DNA of 42,998 nucleotides from an uncultured Mycoplasmatota bacterium (lineage in GTDB: Bacteria > Bacillota_I > Bacilli_A > RF39 > UBA660): positions 1 to 42,998 of the forward strand of contig CAMLWC010000009.1 of assembly GCA_946488855.1 (NCBI GenBank). The letters are read 5' to 3'. Below, piece by piece: positions 5,622 to 14,256 of the stretch; positions within the stretch are counted from its first letter, which is position 1, and every line of letters begins with the position of its first letter. The translations under genes and the position numbers were made by a program. The notes below the pieces were generated by a model. That model searched no databases. It had not been told where the DNA came from and saw only the letters and a list, made by a program, of their open reading frames with translations.

Positions 5622-6482
5622 ATGAAAAAATTATTAACTGCAAAATATGAAGTTATATTTATGTATACAGTAGTAAAAAATGAAAAAATATTAAAATTAT
5701 TAATTGAACAAATATTAAATAGAAAATATAATGAATTTGTAATATTAAATCCTAATTTAATTAAAGATAATATTAATAATATAGGTCAGAAATTAGATTT
5801 GTTAATAAAAGCAGATGATGAATATATAAATGTTGAATTAAATTCTAAATATAATAAATATATAAAAGAAAGAAATTTATTATATGTTTTTAAATTATGT
5901 TTAGATAAAAGCGAAAAAGATAAACAAACCTTAAAAGGAAATGTAAAACAAATAAATATAAATTTTGGAAGAAAAAGTAAAGGAATAGAAGATATAGCAG
6001 TAGTAAATTTAATGAATAATAAAAAAGTAACTACAAAAATAGAAATAAAAAATTTAAATGTAGACTTTTATATTAAAAAGTATTATAATAATTATAAGTT
6101 AACAAAAGAAGAAGAATTGTATGTAATGTTAGGGTTAGAATTAGAGGAATTAAACAAATTAAGTGAAAGGAATGAGATAGTGAAAGAATTTAAAAAAAGT
6201 GTTGAAGAAGCAAACAAAGATGAATTAGTAGTAAAATGGTTTACGCCAGAACAAGAAAGAGAAATGCGGGAAAATTATATAAGGAGTGAAGCCGAAGAAA
6301 AGGGAATGAAAAGAGGTATCAATGAAGGCAAAAAAGTAGGCATCGCTGAAGGTAAAAAAGCAGGAATTTTAGAAGGACTATTACAAACGGCTAAAAATAT
6401 GTTAGATGCAGGTATGAATATTGAAACAATATCAAAACTAACAGGATTATCAGTAAAAAAAATTAAAGATATGTTATTATAA
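5622..6482 (+). CDS. Rpn family recombination-promoting nuclease / PD-(D/E)XK transposase-like protein
   Basis: 286 residues. The N-terminal nuclease-like domain has GQKLDLLIKADDEYINVELN: D59 and E72 fit the PD-(D/E)XK acidic pair, but the residue two after the glutamate is Asn74 where the family usually has Gln, so activity is uncertain. The C-terminus has glycine-rich heptad-like repeats (EGKKVGIAEGKKAGILEG) and a closing helix-turn-helix-like segment (ETISKLTGLSVKKIKDMLL), both typical of Rpn/PDDEXK_2 proteins. Known Rpn proteins are DNA endonucleases linked to RecA-independent recombination and phage defence. It has its own AGGAGGT ribosome site and no partner gene, and such genes are often present in several copies per genome. 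Confidence 0.8.
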   Translation: MKKLLTAKYEVIFMYTVVKNEKILKLLIEQILNRKYNEFVILNPNLIKDNINNIGQKLDLLIKADDEYINVELNSKYNKYIKERNLLYVFKLCLDKSEKDKQTLKGNVKQININFGRKSKGIEDIAVVNLMNNKKVTTKIEIKNLNVDFYIKKYYNNYKLTKEEELYVMLGLELEELNKLSERNEIVKEFKKSVEEANKDELVVKWFTPEQEREMRENYIRSEAEEKGMKRGINEGKKVGIAEGKKAGILEGLLQTAKNMLDAGMNIETISKLTGLSVKKIKDMLL

Positions 6483-7836: not shown

Positions 7837-7867
7837 AAATAGACACTGAATTAATCAGTGTCTATTT
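7837..7867. terminator. Bidirectional terminator between ffh and the anti-sigma gene
   Basis: AAATAGACACTGA, loop ATTAA, TCAGTGTCTATTT: a perfect 13-bp stem with A tract on one side and T tract on the other, usable from both strands. The stop codon of the minus-strand gene is in the loop. Confidence 0.85.
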
Positions 7868-9197
7868 CGTATTCAATAATTTTTCCTGTAGTAGCATTTA
7901 TTTCATAACTATATTCTTTATTATTTGCTTTAAATTCAATTTCATATTTATTATCATCTAATTCAATTTCATAATTAGTTATATTAGTAACATTAGCATG
8001 ATCTAAAGCAATTTGTTTAGCTTTTTCTTTACTAATTACAGGATTAGGTTCTTTATAATTATTATCAATAGAATATTTGATTATTTTACCTGTAGTGGCA
8101 TTTATTTCATAATCATATTCTTTATTATTTGATTTAAACTCAATTTCATATTTATTATCATCTAATTCAATTTCATAATTAGTTATATTAGTAACATTAG
8201 CATGTTTTAAAGTAATTTGCTTTGCTTCATCTTTAGTTATTTTATCAGTTGTTGTATTATTTGAACTATTACTTGAATTATTATTTGAAATTTCGTTATT
8301 ATCAATTTCATATTCAATTATATCGCCAGTTAAAGCATTAATTTCATAATCGTATTCTTTATTGTTTGCTTTAAATTCAATTTCATAAACCATAACATCA
8401 TCAAAATCTAATTCAATTTTATAATTAGTTATATTAGTAACATTAGCGTGATTTAAAGCAATTTCTTTAGCTTTTTTTTCGCCAATATAAGCTTTTTGAC
8501 TAGCACTACCACTAGTTTTTTCATTATCTTTTAAAATTAAATTTAATTCATTAATAGATAAATCAGCTAATTGATCAAAAGTTAACAAATTGTTGTTAGC
8601 CATTATTTGTTTGATTATTTTAACTTTACCTAAAGAAATATTATATTGATTAGCTAAATCAGTTAATTCTTTTTCTTCATTAACAGTTTGGCTAATAATT
8701 GAAATATTTTCCATATTAATTTGATTTAAAATTTCTTGCCTTAAAGTTTCAGCTTTAGCATTATCATTATTTTCAACTGATATTAAAATGGAATTAGCTA
8801 GTTCAGTAATATAACCATTTTTAACCATAGAGCCAATTAAGGCATTAACAGCTACATTAATATCGCTACCTTTTAAATCCATATCGCTAATAATTTTTTT
8901 GCCATCTTCATTATTGGCGATAACTTCTAAAACTTTTTCTTTTTGATTAATTTTTAATTCAACACTTGGATTAACATCGATTCCTACTTTTGAAGTAACT
9001 TTATAATTATTATTATAATATAATCCCCCTATAAATAATAAGCATATTACACAAAGTGTACTGATCGTCGCCATAATAGGCAATTTTCTTTTCTTTTCCA
9101 TATAAACATATCCTTTCTTTTCTAAATTATTTAAATCGAACTTAGGAAGCTTAATATTATTTAAATTTTTACTAATTCTTTTTTCAATATTATTCAT
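7851..9197 (-). CDS. RsgI-like transmembrane anti-sigma factor with three PepSY domains
   Basis: 448 residues. A short cytoplasmic part (1-39, basic before the membrane) is followed by one membrane span (about 40-61). Next comes an RsgI-type extracellular stretch with GIDVNPSVELKIN and NEDGKKII; Asn76-Pro77 matches the bond at which RsgI proteins are known to self-cleave. A helical region follows, then three PepSY-like modules (about 239-302, 321-384, 389-448), each with HANVTNITNY and ending in TG(D/K)II(E/K)Y. The gene overlaps the ECF sigma gene by 8 bases, so I infer that it binds that sigma factor inside the cell and senses an envelope signal outside. The cytoplasmic part is too short for a classical RsgI_N domain, so the binding mode is open. 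Confidence 0.75.
   Translation of the reverse strand: MNNIEKRISKNLNNIKLPKFDLNNLEKKGYVYMEKKRKLPIMATISTLCVICLLFIGGLYYNNNYKVTSKVGIDVNPSVELKINQKEKVLEVIANNEDGKKIISDMDLKGSDINVAVNALIGSMVKNGYITELANSILISVENNDNAKAETLRQEILNQINMENISIISQTVNEEKELTDLANQYNISLGKVKIIKQIMANNNLLTFDQLADLSINELNLILKDNEKTSGSASQKAYIGEKKAKEIALNHANVTNITNYKIELDFDDVMVYEIEFKANNKEYDYEINALTGDIIEYEIDNNEISNNNSSNSSNNTTTDKITKDEAKQITLKHANVTNITNYEIELDDNKYEIEFKSNNKEYDYEINATTGKIIKYSIDNNYKEPNPVISKEKAKQIALDHANVTNITNYEIELDDNKYEIEFKANNKEYSYEINATTGKIIEYEIDTD
7937..8204 (-). repeat. 64-nt exact direct repeat inside the PepSY region
   Basis: The bases at 7937-8000 and 8141-8204 are identical over 64 positions and lie 204 bases (68 codons) apart, in frame. 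They encode the core of PepSY modules 2 and 3. Module 1 (around 8380-8450) is related but more diverged. This looks like a recent in-frame duplication. Confidence 0.85.
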
Positions 9198-9699
9198 TTT
9201 TTCCCTCCTTTGTAAGTTCTTTCAATTTTTTGATTGCCCTATGATATTTAGAGAGAGTAGTAGTTAATTTTAAATCTAAAATCTTAGCAATCTCATGAAA
9301 TTTAAAACCATTCATAGCGTGCAAAATAATAATATTTCTTTCATCGTCATTTAAATTGTTTAGTAAATATTCTATTAATATTTTATCATCATGATTAGGT
9401 TTAGATATAAATTCAATTTCATCAACATTAATTGTTTTTTTGTTACTTCTAATTTTATTGTAGGCAATATTTTTAGTGATTGTTAAAATCCAAGCCATTG
9501 GTTTATTTTGATTTTGATATTTAAAAGCATTGTGATAAATTGTAATAAATACTTCTTGCATAACATCTTTAGCGTCTTCACTATTTTTTAAAATACTTAA
9601 TGCAAAACTATAAACATTATTATTAATTAAATCATATAGTTCATTAAATGCTTCAATATCATTTAAAGCAATTCTTTCTAAGTAGTTACTAATTTCCAT
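9190..9699 (-). CDS. ECF-type RNA polymerase sigma factor
   Basis: 169 residues, the normal length of an extracytoplasmic-function sigma factor. Region 2 is seen in FALSILKNSEDAKDVMQEVF and KPMAWILTITKNIAYNKIRS. Region 4 is LLNNLNDDERNIIILHAMNG with the helix-turn-helix FHEIAKILDLKLTTTLSKYHRAIKKL. It would direct RNA polymerase to a small regulon, held in check by the overlapping membrane anti-sigma factor. Its start at 9699 follows GAGAGGAG. A SigA-type promoter lies upstream; a self-recognised promoter cannot be defined from one site. Confidence 0.92.
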   Translation of the reverse strand: MEISNYLERIALNDIEAFNELYDLINNNVYSFALSILKNSEDAKDVMQEVFITIYHNAFKYQNQNKPMAWILTITKNIAYNKIRSNKKTINVDEIEFISKPNHDDKILIEYLLNNLNDDERNIIILHAMNGFKFHEIAKILDLKLTTTLSKYHRAIKKLKELTKEGKNE

Positions 9700-9759
9700 T
9701 TTTTTACTCCTCTCAATATAACAACACTTTAAAGATTATTTTTATTGCATATTTTTTTA

Positions 9760-9788
9760 AATATATCATATTTTTTTTGATTAGTCAA
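9760..9788 (-). promoter_or_regulatory. SigA-type promoter of the ECF sigma/anti-sigma operon
   Basis: On the minus strand TTGACT (plus 9783-9788), 17 bases, then TGA-TATATT (TATATT at plus 9760-9765, extended -10). It is back to back with the promoter of the MarR-type operon. Confidence 0.65.
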
Positions 9789-9858: not shown

Positions 9859-10287
9859 ATGGATCGACATATTGGATTTTATTTTAAAAAGATTTTTCAG
9901 ATAATGGAAAGAAATATGAATAAAAAATTAGAAAAAATTGATTTAACTAATAGTCAAGCAAGTATATTAATTTATTTATACAAAAATAAGGAAATTGTTA
10001 ATCAAAGAGATATTGAAAGAAAATTTGAGTTGACTAATCCGACAGTCAATGGCATATTAAATAGATTAGAAAATAAAGATTTTATTAAACGTACTGTTAG
10101 TTTAAAAGATGCTAGAAATAAAGAAATCCATTTAACTGAAAAAAGTATTTCACTAATAAATGAAATGAAAAAAGAGGCTAAACAATTAGAAAAAGAAATG
10201 ATAGCAGGCATATCAAAAGAAGAATTAAATATTTTTAATGAAGTTTTAAAAAAAGTATTTAATAATATGCAAGGAGGATTAAAATGA
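9859..10287 (+). CDS. MarR family transcriptional regulator
   Basis: 142 residues with the winged helix-turn-helix layout of MarR: helix QRDIERKFELTNPTVNGILNRLE, then the wing KDARNKEIHLTEK. The N- and C-terminal helices form the dimer interface. It overlaps the first ABC gene by four bases (ATGA), and a palindrome covers its own promoter, so it very likely represses its operon and responds to a compound that the exporter removes. The ligand is unknown. The start at 9859 follows GGAGATGATTAA. Confidence 0.9.
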   Translation: MDRHIGFYFKKIFQIMERNMNKKLEKIDLTNSQASILIYLYKNKEIVNQRDIERKFELTNPTVNGILNRLENKDFIKRTVSLKDARNKEIHLTEKSISLINEMKKEAKQLEKEMIAGISKEELNIFNEVLKKVFNNMQGGLK

Positions 10288-12464
10288 AACATGTATTAAA
10301 AACATTAAAAAAGTATAGTTTTCAAATAATATTAGTATTTGTATTACTTTTTATGCAAGCAATGTGTGATTTAAGTTTACCAGAATATACTTCTGATATA
10401 GTAAATATTGGTATACAACAAAGTGGTATTGAATCCTCGGTACCAGATGTAATTAGAGAAAGTGAATATGAAAAATTATTGTTGTTTATGGATGATAGCG
10501 ATAAAACAATTGTAAATAATAATTATACTTTAATAACAAAAGATGATACGGAGTATTTAGAAAAATATCCATTATTAAATGAAGAAAATTTATATGTTTT
10601 AACTGGTGATGATGATTTAAATGATATAATGACTTTACCTATTATAATGGTATATAGTTTTTCTAATAATACAATTGAAATACCAGAATTAAGTATTCCT
10701 GAGGGTATGACTATTTTTGATGTTTTAAAAAATATGGATAGTGTTACTCATAGTCAATTTTTAAATAAATTAAAAGAAAATTATTCTAATGAAAAAGTTA
10801 GTTTATTAGAACAAATGGCTACAGTTTATTTAAAAAATGAATATACCGAAATAGGTATTGATGTATCTAATTTACAAATTAGTTATATCGCTAAAACAGG
10901 TATTAAAATGTTAGCTGTTGCTTTAGCTGCAATGGTGTTAACTATCGTAACCGTATTTTTATCAAGTCGTATTGCAGCATTCTTTAGTAGAGATTTAAGA
11001 AGTAAGGTAGTTAATAAAGTTATGACTTATTCAAATAAAGAATTTGAAAGTTTTTCAACTGCTTCTTTAATTACTAGAAGTACTAATGATATTCAACAAG
11101 TTCAAATGTTAATTGTTATGTTACTTAGAATAGTATTCTTTGCTCCAATCATGGGAATAGGTGCTTTAACTAAAGTTAGTGGTAATGAAATGAGTTGGAT
11201 AATTGGTTTAGCTGTATTAGTAATTATAAGTTTTGTAATTATATTATTTAGTATTGCTATGCCTAAATTTAATAAAGTTCAAAAGTTAATTGATAGAGTA
11301 AATTTAGTAGCAAGAGAAATATTATCAGGTATTCAAGTTATAAGAGCTTTTGGTACTGAAAAACATGAAGAAGAAAGATTTGATAAAGCAAATAAAGATC
11401 TAATGAAAGTAAATTTATTTGTAAATAGAACAATGACAATTATGATGCCAACTATGATGTTTATTATGAATGGTGTTAGTGTTTTAATTGTTTGGATAGG
11501 TGCAAGTAAAATTGATGCTGGAACAATTCAAGTTGGTACTTTATTAGCATTTATTACTTATACTATGCAAATAATTATGTCATTTTTAATGATTTCAATG
11601 GTATCAATTATGGTTCCACGTGCATTTGTTTCAATGAATAGAATAGGCGAAGTATTAGATAAAGATACTTCAGTTAAACAAAAAGATAAATGTTTAAAGT
11701 TTAATAATAATCTAAAAGGTACGGTTGAATTTAAGGATGTTTATTTTAGATATCCAGATGCTGAAGAAGATGTTTTACAAAATATTAGTTTCAAAGCAAC
11801 CAAAGGAACAACAACAGCATTTATCGGTTCAACTGGTTCAGGTAAATCAACTTTAATTAATTTAATTCCAAGATTTTTTGATGTTACAGGTGGTAAAATT
11901 TTAATTGATGGAATTGATATAAGAAATGCTAATATCAAAGAATTAAGAGATAAAATTGGTTATGTACCACAAAAAGGAATATTATTTACTGGTACTATTG
12001 AATCTAATATTGGTTTTGGATTACATAAAAAAGATGATGAAGTAATTAAAAAAGCTGCAAAGATAAGTCAAGCTGAAGAATTTATTAATGATAAAAAAGA
12101 TAAATATGAAAGTGCTATATCACAAGGTGGTACTAATGTATCAGGTGGTCAAAGACAGAGATTAGCAATTGCAAGAGCTATTGCAACAGATCCAGAAATA
12201 TATATATTTGATGATAGTTTTTCAGCATTAGATTATAAAACAGATGCTAAATTAAGAAAAGAATTAAATAAAGTAACTAAAGATTCAACTATATTTATTG
12301 TTGCTCAAAGAATAAGTACGGTTATGAATGCTAATCAAATTATTGTTTTAGATAAAGGTCATATAGTAGGAATTGGTAAACATAAAGAATTATTAAAAAA
12401 CTGTGATATTTATAGAGAAATAGCTTACTCACAATTATCAAAGGAGGAGTTAGAAAATGAATAG
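10284..12464 (+). CDS. ABC exporter subunit A with degenerate ATP site
   Basis: 726 residues: membrane domain fused to an ATPase. After a first span (about 12-32) there is an unusual external insert of roughly 170 residues before the second span (near 205), then the remaining spans and the ATPase. Walker A GSTGSGKST is at 515-523, the signature VSGGQ at 619-623, and Walker B ends FDD at 642-644, so the catalytic glutamate is replaced by Asp644 (DDSFSALD). That is the pattern of the non-consensus half of a heterodimeric exporter (YheI/BmrC/TM287 type). The second half follows with an 8-base overlap. Likely a drug or peptide exporter under MarR control. Confidence 0.88.
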   Translation: MKHVLKTLKKYSFQIILVFVLLFMQAMCDLSLPEYTSDIVNIGIQQSGIESSVPDVIRESEYEKLLLFMDDSDKTIVNNNYTLITKDDTEYLEKYPLLNEENLYVLTGDDDLNDIMTLPIIMVYSFSNNTIEIPELSIPEGMTIFDVLKNMDSVTHSQFLNKLKENYSNEKVSLLEQMATVYLKNEYTEIGIDVSNLQISYIAKTGIKMLAVALAAMVLTIVTVFLSSRIAAFFSRDLRSKVVNKVMTYSNKEFESFSTASLITRSTNDIQQVQMLIVMLLRIVFFAPIMGIGALTKVSGNEMSWIIGLAVLVIISFVIILFSIAMPKFNKVQKLIDRVNLVAREILSGIQVIRAFGTEKHEEERFDKANKDLMKVNLFVNRTMTIMMPTMMFIMNGVSVLIVWIGASKIDAGTIQVGTLLAFITYTMQIIMSFLMISMVSIMVPRAFVSMNRIGEVLDKDTSVKQKDKCLKFNNNLKGTVEFKDVYFRYPDAEEDVLQNISFKATKGTTTAFIGSTGSGKSTLINLIPRFFDVTGGKILIDGIDIRNANIKELRDKIGYVPQKGILFTGTIESNIGFGLHKKDDEVIKKAAKISQAEEFINDKKDKYESAISQGGTNVSGGQRQRLAIARAIATDPEIYIFDDSFSALDYKTDAKLRKELNKVTKDSTIFIVAQRISTVMNANQIIVLDKGHIVGIGKHKELLKNCDIYREIAYSQLSKEELENE

Positions 12465-14256
12465 AGGTCCAGGTGCAATAGGCAGTGTTGAAAAAGCCAA
12501 AGATTTTAAAGGAACATTAAAAAAATTATTCAAAAGTATGAGTAAATATAAAATACAATTAATAGTTATATTTATATTTGCTATTGCCAGTACCATATTT
12601 TCCATAGTAGGACCTAAAATACTAGGTAATGCTACAACGGAATTATTTAATGGAATTGTTAGCAAATTATCAGGTGGTGCTGGTATTGATTTTGATAAAA
12701 TTGCTTCTATTTTAATATTTTTGATAATTTTATATATTATAAGTGCATTATTTTCTTATGTTCAAGGATTTATAATGACTGGTATAAGTCAAAAATATAC
12801 ATATCAATTAAGAAAAAAAGTATCTATCAAAATAAACAAATTACCTATTTCTTATTTTGATAAAAAAACTCATGGTGAAGTTTTATCTATTATAACTAAT
12901 GATATTGATACAATGAGTCAAAGTTTAAATCAAAGTGCAACACAATTAATAACTTCTATTACAACAATTATTGGTATATTAGTAATGATGCTATCAATAA
13001 ATGTTACAATGACGATTGTTGCTATATTAATTTTACCAATAGCCTCTTTAATTACAATGTTTATTGTTAAACATAGTCAAAATTATTTTGCTAAACAACA
13101 AGAATATTTAGGTCATGTTAATGGTAAAATTGAAGAAATGTATTCTGGACAAAATGTTATTAAAGTATTTAATGCTGAAAATAAAGTTTTGAAAGAATTT
13201 GAAAAAGATAATACTTATTTAAGTAATGTTGGATGGAAGAGTCAATTTTTCTCTGGTATGATGCATCCAATTATGAATTTTATTGGTAATTTAGGATATG
13301 TTGTAATTGCAATATTAGGTGGTTATTTTACTATTTTAGGTAAAATTACAGTTGGTAATATTCAATCATTTATTTCATATACTAAAAATTTTACAAACCC
13401 AATTGCTCAATTAGCGCAAGTATCAAATATGATTCAATCAATGATTGCAGCTAGTGAAAGAGTATTTGAATTTTTAGATGAAAAAGAAGAAGTAGAAGTT
13501 AAAAATCCACTTAAAGTAGATAATATCGAAGGAAATGTTATTTTTGATCATGTTAAATTTGGTTATAATGAAGATCAAATTATAATTAAAGATTTTAGTG
13601 CAGATGTTAAGAAGGGACAGAAGATTGCTATAGTAGGACCTACTGGAGCAGGTAAAACAACAATGATTAAATTACTTATGAGATTTTATAATGTTAATGA
13701 TGGTGCTATTTTAATTGATGGAAACAATATTAATAATTTTAAAAGAAGTGATTTAAGACATATATTTGGTATGGTTTTACAAGATACTTGGTTATTCTCA
13801 GGAACTATTATGGAAAATTTAAGATATGGAAAATTAGATGCAACTGATGACGAAATAATTGAAGCCGCTAAAAAAGCCCATGTCCATCATTTTATTCAAA
13901 CTTTGCCAGATGCATATAATATGGAATTAAATGAAGAAACAAATAATATATCTCAAGGACAAAAACAATTACTTACAATTGCTCGTGCTATTTTAGCTAA
14001 TCCTAAAGTATTAATATTAGATGAAGCAACAAGTAGTGTTGATACAAGAACAGAAATATTAATTCAAAAAGCAATGGATGAATTAATGAAAGGAAGAACA
14101 TCTTTCATAATTGCTCATAGATTATCAACTATTAGAGATGCCGATTTAATATTAGTTATGAATAATGGAGATATAGTAGAACAAGGAAATCATGAAGAAT
14201 TATTAAAGAAAAATGGTTTTTATGCTAATTTATATAATTCTCAATTTGAACAATGA
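12457..14256 (+). CDS. ABC exporter subunit B with canonical catalytic site
   Basis: 599 residues: six membrane spans, then an ATPase with Walker A GPTGAGKTT (394-402) and Walker B LILDEATSSVD with Asp522-Glu523. Its signature motif is ISQGQ (498-502) instead of LSGGQ. In a heterodimer this weak signature faces the Walker motifs of subunit A, which lack the glutamate, making one dead site. The good signature of subunit A faces the good Walker B of this subunit, making one active site. The two changes fit each other exactly. The start overlaps subunit A, with GGAGGAG upstream. Confidence 0.9.
   Translation: MNRGPGAIGSVEKAKDFKGTLKKLFKSMSKYKIQLIVIFIFAIASTIFSIVGPKILGNATTELFNGIVSKLSGGAGIDFDKIASILIFLIILYIISALFSYVQGFIMTGISQKYTYQLRKKVSIKINKLPISYFDKKTHGEVLSIITNDIDTMSQSLNQSATQLITSITTIIGILVMMLSINVTMTIVAILILPIASLITMFIVKHSQNYFAKQQEYLGHVNGKIEEMYSGQNVIKVFNAENKVLKEFEKDNTYLSNVGWKSQFFSGMMHPIMNFIGNLGYVVIAILGGYFTILGKITVGNIQSFISYTKNFTNPIAQLAQVSNMIQSMIAASERVFEFLDEKEEVEVKNPLKVDNIEGNVIFDHVKFGYNEDQIIIKDFSADVKKGQKIAIVGPTGAGKTTMIKLLMRFYNVNDGAILIDGNNINNFKRSDLRHIFGMVLQDTWLFSGTIMENLRYGKLDATDDEIIEAAKKAHVHHFIQTLPDAYNMELNEETNNISQGQKQLLTIARAILANPKVLILDEATSSVDTRTEILIQKAMDELMKGRTSFIIAHRLSTIRDADLILVMNNGDIVEQGNHEELLKKNGFYANLYNSQFEQ

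Follow-up and report, generated by a model that had tools for sequence, protein, structure and literature searches.

The closest described systems are the SigI-RsgI pairs of B. subtilis and C. thermocellum (RsgI1-9), and it is with SigI that RsgI self-cleavage has previously been studied. C. thermocellum also possesses sigma24C, which we take to be an ECF-type sigma factor. This protein and its membrane partner Rsi24C (Cthe_1470-1471) form a pair that is listed beside the SigI-RsgI pairs in the accessible part of one report (PMC3990059). For RsgI, the available text of a second report has self-cleavage, RseP, and ClpXP acting in turn (PMC12203970), and RsiV, from the SigV-RsiV system, is cut by RasP according to the accessible portion of a third (PMC7478892).

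The window analyzed here, that is, the whole stretch of 42,998 nucleotides from an uncultured Mycoplasmatota bacterium, contains a gene pair that resembles each of these systems in part. The first gene (9190-9699, reverse strand, ATG start), defined by its open reading frame and profile matches, encodes a protein of 169 aa with regions 2 and 4 only; it matches Sigma70_r2 (5.5e-14) and Sigma70_r4_2 (3.1e-9), and is therefore of the ECF type, and it also matches TIGR02937 above the cut-off (2.4e-21). It overlaps by 8 bases (9190-9197) the reading frame of a candidate membrane anti-sigma factor of 448 aa (7851-9197, reverse strand, ATG start), which is defined by reading frame, profile matches, and a structural model. 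On the same strand, this second frame encodes a cytoplasmic segment (residues 1-39; 9081-9197), one transmembrane helix (residues 40-64; 9006-9080; a helix in the AlphaFold2 model and hydrophobic by eye), an RsgI_M/SEAL autoproteolysis domain (residues 71-196; 8610-8987; PF23750, 4.5e-28, and Foldseek), within which lie the codons of the predicted self-cleavage site Asn76-Pro77 (8967-8972), and three PepSY repeats (7866-8486, with stretches at 8307-8486, 8076-8243, and 7866-8036; PF03413, 8.9e-33 overall). Pfam profiles at E up to 1 found no RsgI_N (PF12791), DUF3298, or DUF4179 in the 448-aa protein, and a profile search at E up to 0.001 found no RsgI_N in the window's genome, an incomplete assembly of 1.23 Mb; DUF4179 was weakly matched (0.0029) in one of 55 homologues. 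A search of 17 genomes of the same genus recovered the whole 448-aa protein in 15, at 62-96% identity. The locus of Ca. Faecisoma merdavium shows 90% identity, which places the window's genome in the genus Candidatus Faecisoma or very close to it.

A gene pair with these domains is far beyond chance. An earlier sequence-only reading had described an ECF sigma gene overlapping a membrane protein by 8 bases, with three PepSY repeats and no evident RsgI_N, and the observation of an ECF factor paired with an RsgI-type, PepSY-bearing protein is confirmed in each of these points, with the same coordinates of the reading frames; the contrary result that it had named, a standard RsgI_N found by profile search, did not occur.

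The pair shares with SigI-RsgI the RsgI_M/SEAL domain, an Asn-Pro at the solved cleavage position, the single membrane crossing, C-terminal extracellular modules, an operon with the sigma gene, and a site-2 protease in the genome, in this case an M50, RseP-type gene (PF02163, 1e-67). Unlike SigI-RsgI, its sigma partner has the regions 2 and 4 of an ECF factor and is not SigI, RsgI_N is missing, and PepSY repeats stand in place of carbohydrate-binding modules. With sigma24C-Rsi24C it has in common a sigma factor paired with a membrane anti-sigma factor, a precedent that stands beside the RsgI set, whereas Rsi24C carries a GH5 module where the window protein carries PepSY (PMC3990059, accessible part). 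It resembles SigV-RsiV and the DUF4179 anti-sigma factors in its ECF partner, its short cytoplasmic segment, and its predicted site-2 proteolysis (for RsiV, the available text of PMC7478892), and differs from them in having neither DUF3298 nor DUF4179. The window's own genome also encodes an RsiV-type DUF3298 domain, in a frame of 464 aa (L225, G000:C1:19385-19612).

Residue 1 of the cleaved RsgI periplasmic chains 8u9o_B, 8hep_B, 8her_B, 8heq_B, and 8hdj_B aligns to Pro77 of the window protein, and Asn76-Pro77, which had been singled out earlier as an RsgI-type motif, is therefore the predicted scissile bond. Asn-Pro is invariant in 55 aligned homologues and is kept in 80/80 loci from named genomes and in 67 of 68 ECF-linked ORFs of the class census described below. 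In an AlphaFold2 model of the 448-aa protein built with 54 homologues (mean pLDDT 82.9, pTM 0.59), residues 2-13 are predicted to form a cytoplasmic helix and residues 40-64 a long one, Asn76-Pro77 is placed between strands 69-74 and 78-83, and there are three PepSY units. In Foldseek searches, the SEAL part reached target-based TM-scores of 0.75-0.77 with RsgI2 (8hdj) and B. subtilis RsgI (8t9n); the top match was YpeB 5boi (1.9e-10), to the PepSY part, the C-terminal domains of YpeB having the PepSY fold. To our knowledge, YpeB is not a sigma regulator.

Conservation of Asn-Pro alone is no proof of a role in sigma release, because the motif is also kept in RsgI_M lipoproteins without a neighboring sigma gene. 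In the census, RsgI_M ORFs without an adjoining sigma gene show a lipobox-like pattern in 46/54 cases, yet retain Asn-Pro (e.g., L047, L053, L045, L110), and the pattern occurs in 15 of the 19 that lie behind another RsgI_M gene; some RsgI_M lipoprotein-like genes come immediately after an ECF-RsgI_M pair. It is not obvious why lipoproteins that lack a cytoplasmic part would cleave themselves.

Profile searches of 296 genomes of the window's class placed RsgI_M above the cut-off in 102 and RsgI_N in 5. The census, drawn from the best matches listed, comprised 150 RsgI_M ORFs in 120 regions, one ORF having been dropped beforehand. The gene just upstream was ECF-like in 68, SigI-type in 7, and another RsgI_M gene in 19; 54 ORFs had no sigma gene next door, meaning none by iterated ECF profile within 250 nt, and 2 were at a locus end. 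The seven genes counted as SigI-type encode proteins of 237-268 aa, and in five cases the genome also has RsgI_N above the cut-off. When the 90 upstream proteins (83 ECF-like and 7 long) were scanned with Pfam, Sigma70_r2 was found in 88 and Sigma70_r4_2 in 78.

Control of SigI by RsgI-like proteins is thus not the rule in the window's class, where ECF partners outnumber SigI by 68 to 7 among the 150, contrary to the premise of the sequence-only reading that RsgI proteins normally control SigI and not ECF factors. Its proposal that an RsgI-like switch had been joined to an ECF factor is borne out by the single operon, the SEAL domain, and the lack of RsgI_N, but the joining is not peculiar to this locus, and its interpretation as a whole is partly supported. 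Across a whole class, and in many Clostridia, the main partners of the self-cutting RsgI domain are ECF sigma factors. This points to a sensing module that can be exchanged and can serve different sigma families via different cytoplasmic ends.

The cytoplasmic end of the window protein fits such a role. Pro18 is nearly invariant across the 55 homologues, the rest of the 39-residue end being variable. When a segment profile of the PepSY form (69 distinct ends and that of the window) was compared with one made from 50 PepSY-less ECF-linked RsgI_M proteins, the two matched with probability 94.8 and E 5.5e-8, against at most 1.0 for 30 column-permuted decoys. Judged from these profiles, the segment, which is unlike RsgI_N, is common to ECF-linked RsgI_M proteins, and of all parts of the protein residues 1-39 are the most likely to bind the ECF factor. 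An origin of the segment from RsiV/DUF4179-type ECF anti-sigma factors was also considered, but the profiles, with six typed comparators only, gave no match (probability 0.6). A SigI-linked set gave no match; this set contained six RsgI_M lipoproteins, and the comparison was therefore left unused.

To follow the PepSY form more widely, named genomes were scanned with an alignment of PepSY-bearing members, and the best 80 of 438 relatives were kept; 15 of these loci are from the window's genus, several are the same contigs as census loci L002-L016, and the PepSY content of the set is biased by the query, which itself bore PepSY. An ECF-like gene lies no more than 400 nt upstream in 80/80 (78/80 under a stricter rule), and the proteins have one to five PepSY units. 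The loci come from Bacilli, Erysipelotrichaceae, Lachnospiraceae, Oscillospiraceae, Christensenellaceae, and others, Clostridia included. Both PepSY and RsgI_M were matched in 55/55 aligned homologues. In the census, however, 55 of the 68 ECF-linked RsgI_M proteins are without PepSY, and PepSY is therefore not needed for the basic switch. On a sigma tree made by a quick method (130 rows, with eight outgroup rows that include long branches), the PepSY label needs 2 changes, and the PepSY form is thus mostly one lineage. A literature search found no paper on RsgI and PepSY together; the original papers on SEAL, RsgI, and RsgI9 autoproteolysis and on ECF re-classification were outside its reach, and an earlier description there is possible.

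A predicted ECF autoregulatory promoter, TGCAATAAAA...GTGTTG, lies before the sigma gene at 9722-9749 on the reverse strand (-35 at 9749-9744, -10 at 9727-9722), and downstream of it, on the same strand, is GAGAGGAG (9714-9707). The block TGCAATAAAA is unbroken in the alignment of 13 loci of the genus. Outside the genus, TGCAATAA occurs in 54/65 upstream regions, compared with 1.4 expected, and among the 80 named loci the element TGCAATA-N17-RTT is found at the sigma gene in 69, with a single match in 1.18 Mb of control sequence (the remainder of the same loci, both strands); 11 loci were without a match, three of these having incomplete upstream sequence. The consensus is TGCAATAAAA-N12-GCATTA, i.e., TGCAAT, 16 bases, and GCATTA or GCGTTA, followed mostly by TGAAAGGAG, and this ribosome site soon after the -10 would make the leader short.

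The position of a conserved promoter just before the sigma gene in 69/80 loci makes autoregulation probable, and there is strong sequence evidence that the sigma factor would use promoters of the TGCAATAAAA-N12-GCATTA type to transcribe its operon. Among ECF-linked census loci, the element is present in 6/13 that bear PepSY, being missing from the other 7, and in 1/52 that do not, which assigns the promoter to the PepSY lineage. The same switch with the same promoter in many gut bacteria argues that the switch is real, and, with this promoter conserved, the regulon can be tested directly in the cultured relatives Longibaculum muris DSM 29487 and Massiliimalia timonensis. Upstream of the ECF-type promoter, a sigma-A-like promoter recognized by consensus match alone (TTGACT-17-TATATT, with TG before the -10; 9760-9788, reverse strand), and alike in near relatives, may possibly serve as the basal operon promoter. 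A simple scan found no terminator at the operon's end.

Further predicted targets were found in other genera. Two genomes of one genus (G207 and G306) have tandem copies of the promoter before a gene for a secreted or anchored PepSY-repeat protein (L344, 2092 and 2171, forward strand; L345, 4742 and 4670, reverse strand), which is a five-repeat frame in L345 and two separate frames in L344. In other genomes, genes with PepSY alone have no such promoter, and this target is therefore limited to one genus. A different genus has, in two genomes (G161 and G260), one site that precedes murA (NCBIfam equivalog, 2.8e-190), with the -35 and -10 kept and the spacer bases diverged. Together, murA and the secreted PepSY-repeat gene point to the cell envelope, and there is moderate evidence that envelope stress may be the theme of the pathway.

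A shared ECF promoter motif had also been among the checks proposed at the outset, and it was found at 69/80 loci; for the genome of the window itself, a target beyond the operon is not established. That genome (G000) has 7 exact matches to a looser pattern, TGCAATAA-N16-RTT, and the two examined are the operon and a site without a downstream gene. In the window itself, the only exact pattern match is the operon's own, and with one mismatch allowed there are 10 matches against 10.07 expected from shuffles. The looser pattern was rejected as a regulon finder, being too common: it has 231 matches in 24 genomes, compared with 55 for the reversed control, and the sites with examined context are mostly inside genes.

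These features probably make up an operon of an ECF sigma factor and its anti-sigma factor, in which regulated intramembrane proteolysis is preceded by a cut that the anti-sigma factor makes in itself. Given homology to RsgI and an RseP-type gene in the genome, the protein likely cleaves itself and sheds its ectodomain, after which site-2 cleavage would set the sigma factor free. The 448-aa protein would cross the membrane once and hold the ECF factor through residues 1-39. Outside, the SEAL domain would cut itself at Asn76-Pro77, to judge from homology, fold, and the place of the motif, and the two pieces would stay joined by a beta-sheet until the ectodomain was pulled off by a change that the three PepSY repeats sense or pass on. 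By analogy with RsgI, the remaining stub would then be cut by the RseP-type site-2 protease and degraded, and the freed sigma factor would transcribe its own operon and, in some genera, probably also the gene for the secreted PepSY-repeat protein or murA.

Several other explanations deserve consideration. The protein could be a true RsgI whose SigI partner is encoded elsewhere, the ECF neighbor being incidental. RsgI_M is indeed the RsgI domain, and C. thermocellum has an orphan RsgI, RsgI9 (accessible part of PMC12203970); we nevertheless regard this as very improbable, as the 448-aa protein has no RsgI_N, an ECF-like gene is directly upstream in 80/80 named loci, the cytoplasmic segment is common to other ECF-linked proteins, and RsgI_N exceeds the cut-off in so few class genomes (5/296) compared with RsgI_M (102). 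With no RsgI_N and a partner other than SigI, "true RsgI with SigI" was rejected as a family name and is kept only in the sense of "works like". A somewhat less remote alternative, though still an unlikely one, is a sigma/anti-sigma pair in which SEAL no longer cleaves and an outside protease makes the site-1 cut, as for RsiV or RsiW. According to the available text of PMC12203970, C. thermocellum RsgI8 undergoes degradation even though it has no motif for self-cleavage, and signaling by B. subtilis RsgI is not completely prevented when the site is closed; against this stand the Asn-Pro of all 80 named loci and its place at the scissile position.

What the PepSY repeats do is a further matter. 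They may be an anchor or a protease-inhibitor tail, with the signal received by the SEAL domain or by another protein, and we consider this a real if minority possibility: PepSY is known from peptidase propeptides and YpeB (Pfam description), YpeB 5boi is the Foldseek match, and most ECF-linked census proteins do without PepSY (55/68). On the other hand, PepSY is kept in all 55 aligned subfamily members, and a secreted PepSY-only protein is a predicted target. The most likely reading of the operon is that of an envelope-stress pathway, probably sensing envelope damage. More tentatively, and with the odds rather against it, it may represent a separate, ancient ECF-SEAL-PepSY envelope-stress pathway of gut Bacillota, with a promoter code (TGCAATAAAA-N12-GCATTA) and a short anti-sigma segment of its own, that drives murA and secreted PepSY-repeat proteins copying the repeats of the sensor. 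If this were true, secreted PepSY repeats would compete with or shield the sensor and so provide feedback.

At 9859-14256 on the forward strand, divergent from the sigma operon and having a common intergenic region with it, are a gene for a MarR-family regulator (profile match) and then two ABC-exporter-like genes (by eye). On the other side of the operon, a PD-(D/E)XK transposase-family protein is encoded at 5622-6482 on the forward strand (PF12784, 3.1e-8), flanked by methyltransferase-like and SRP54-like genes, both recognized by eye.
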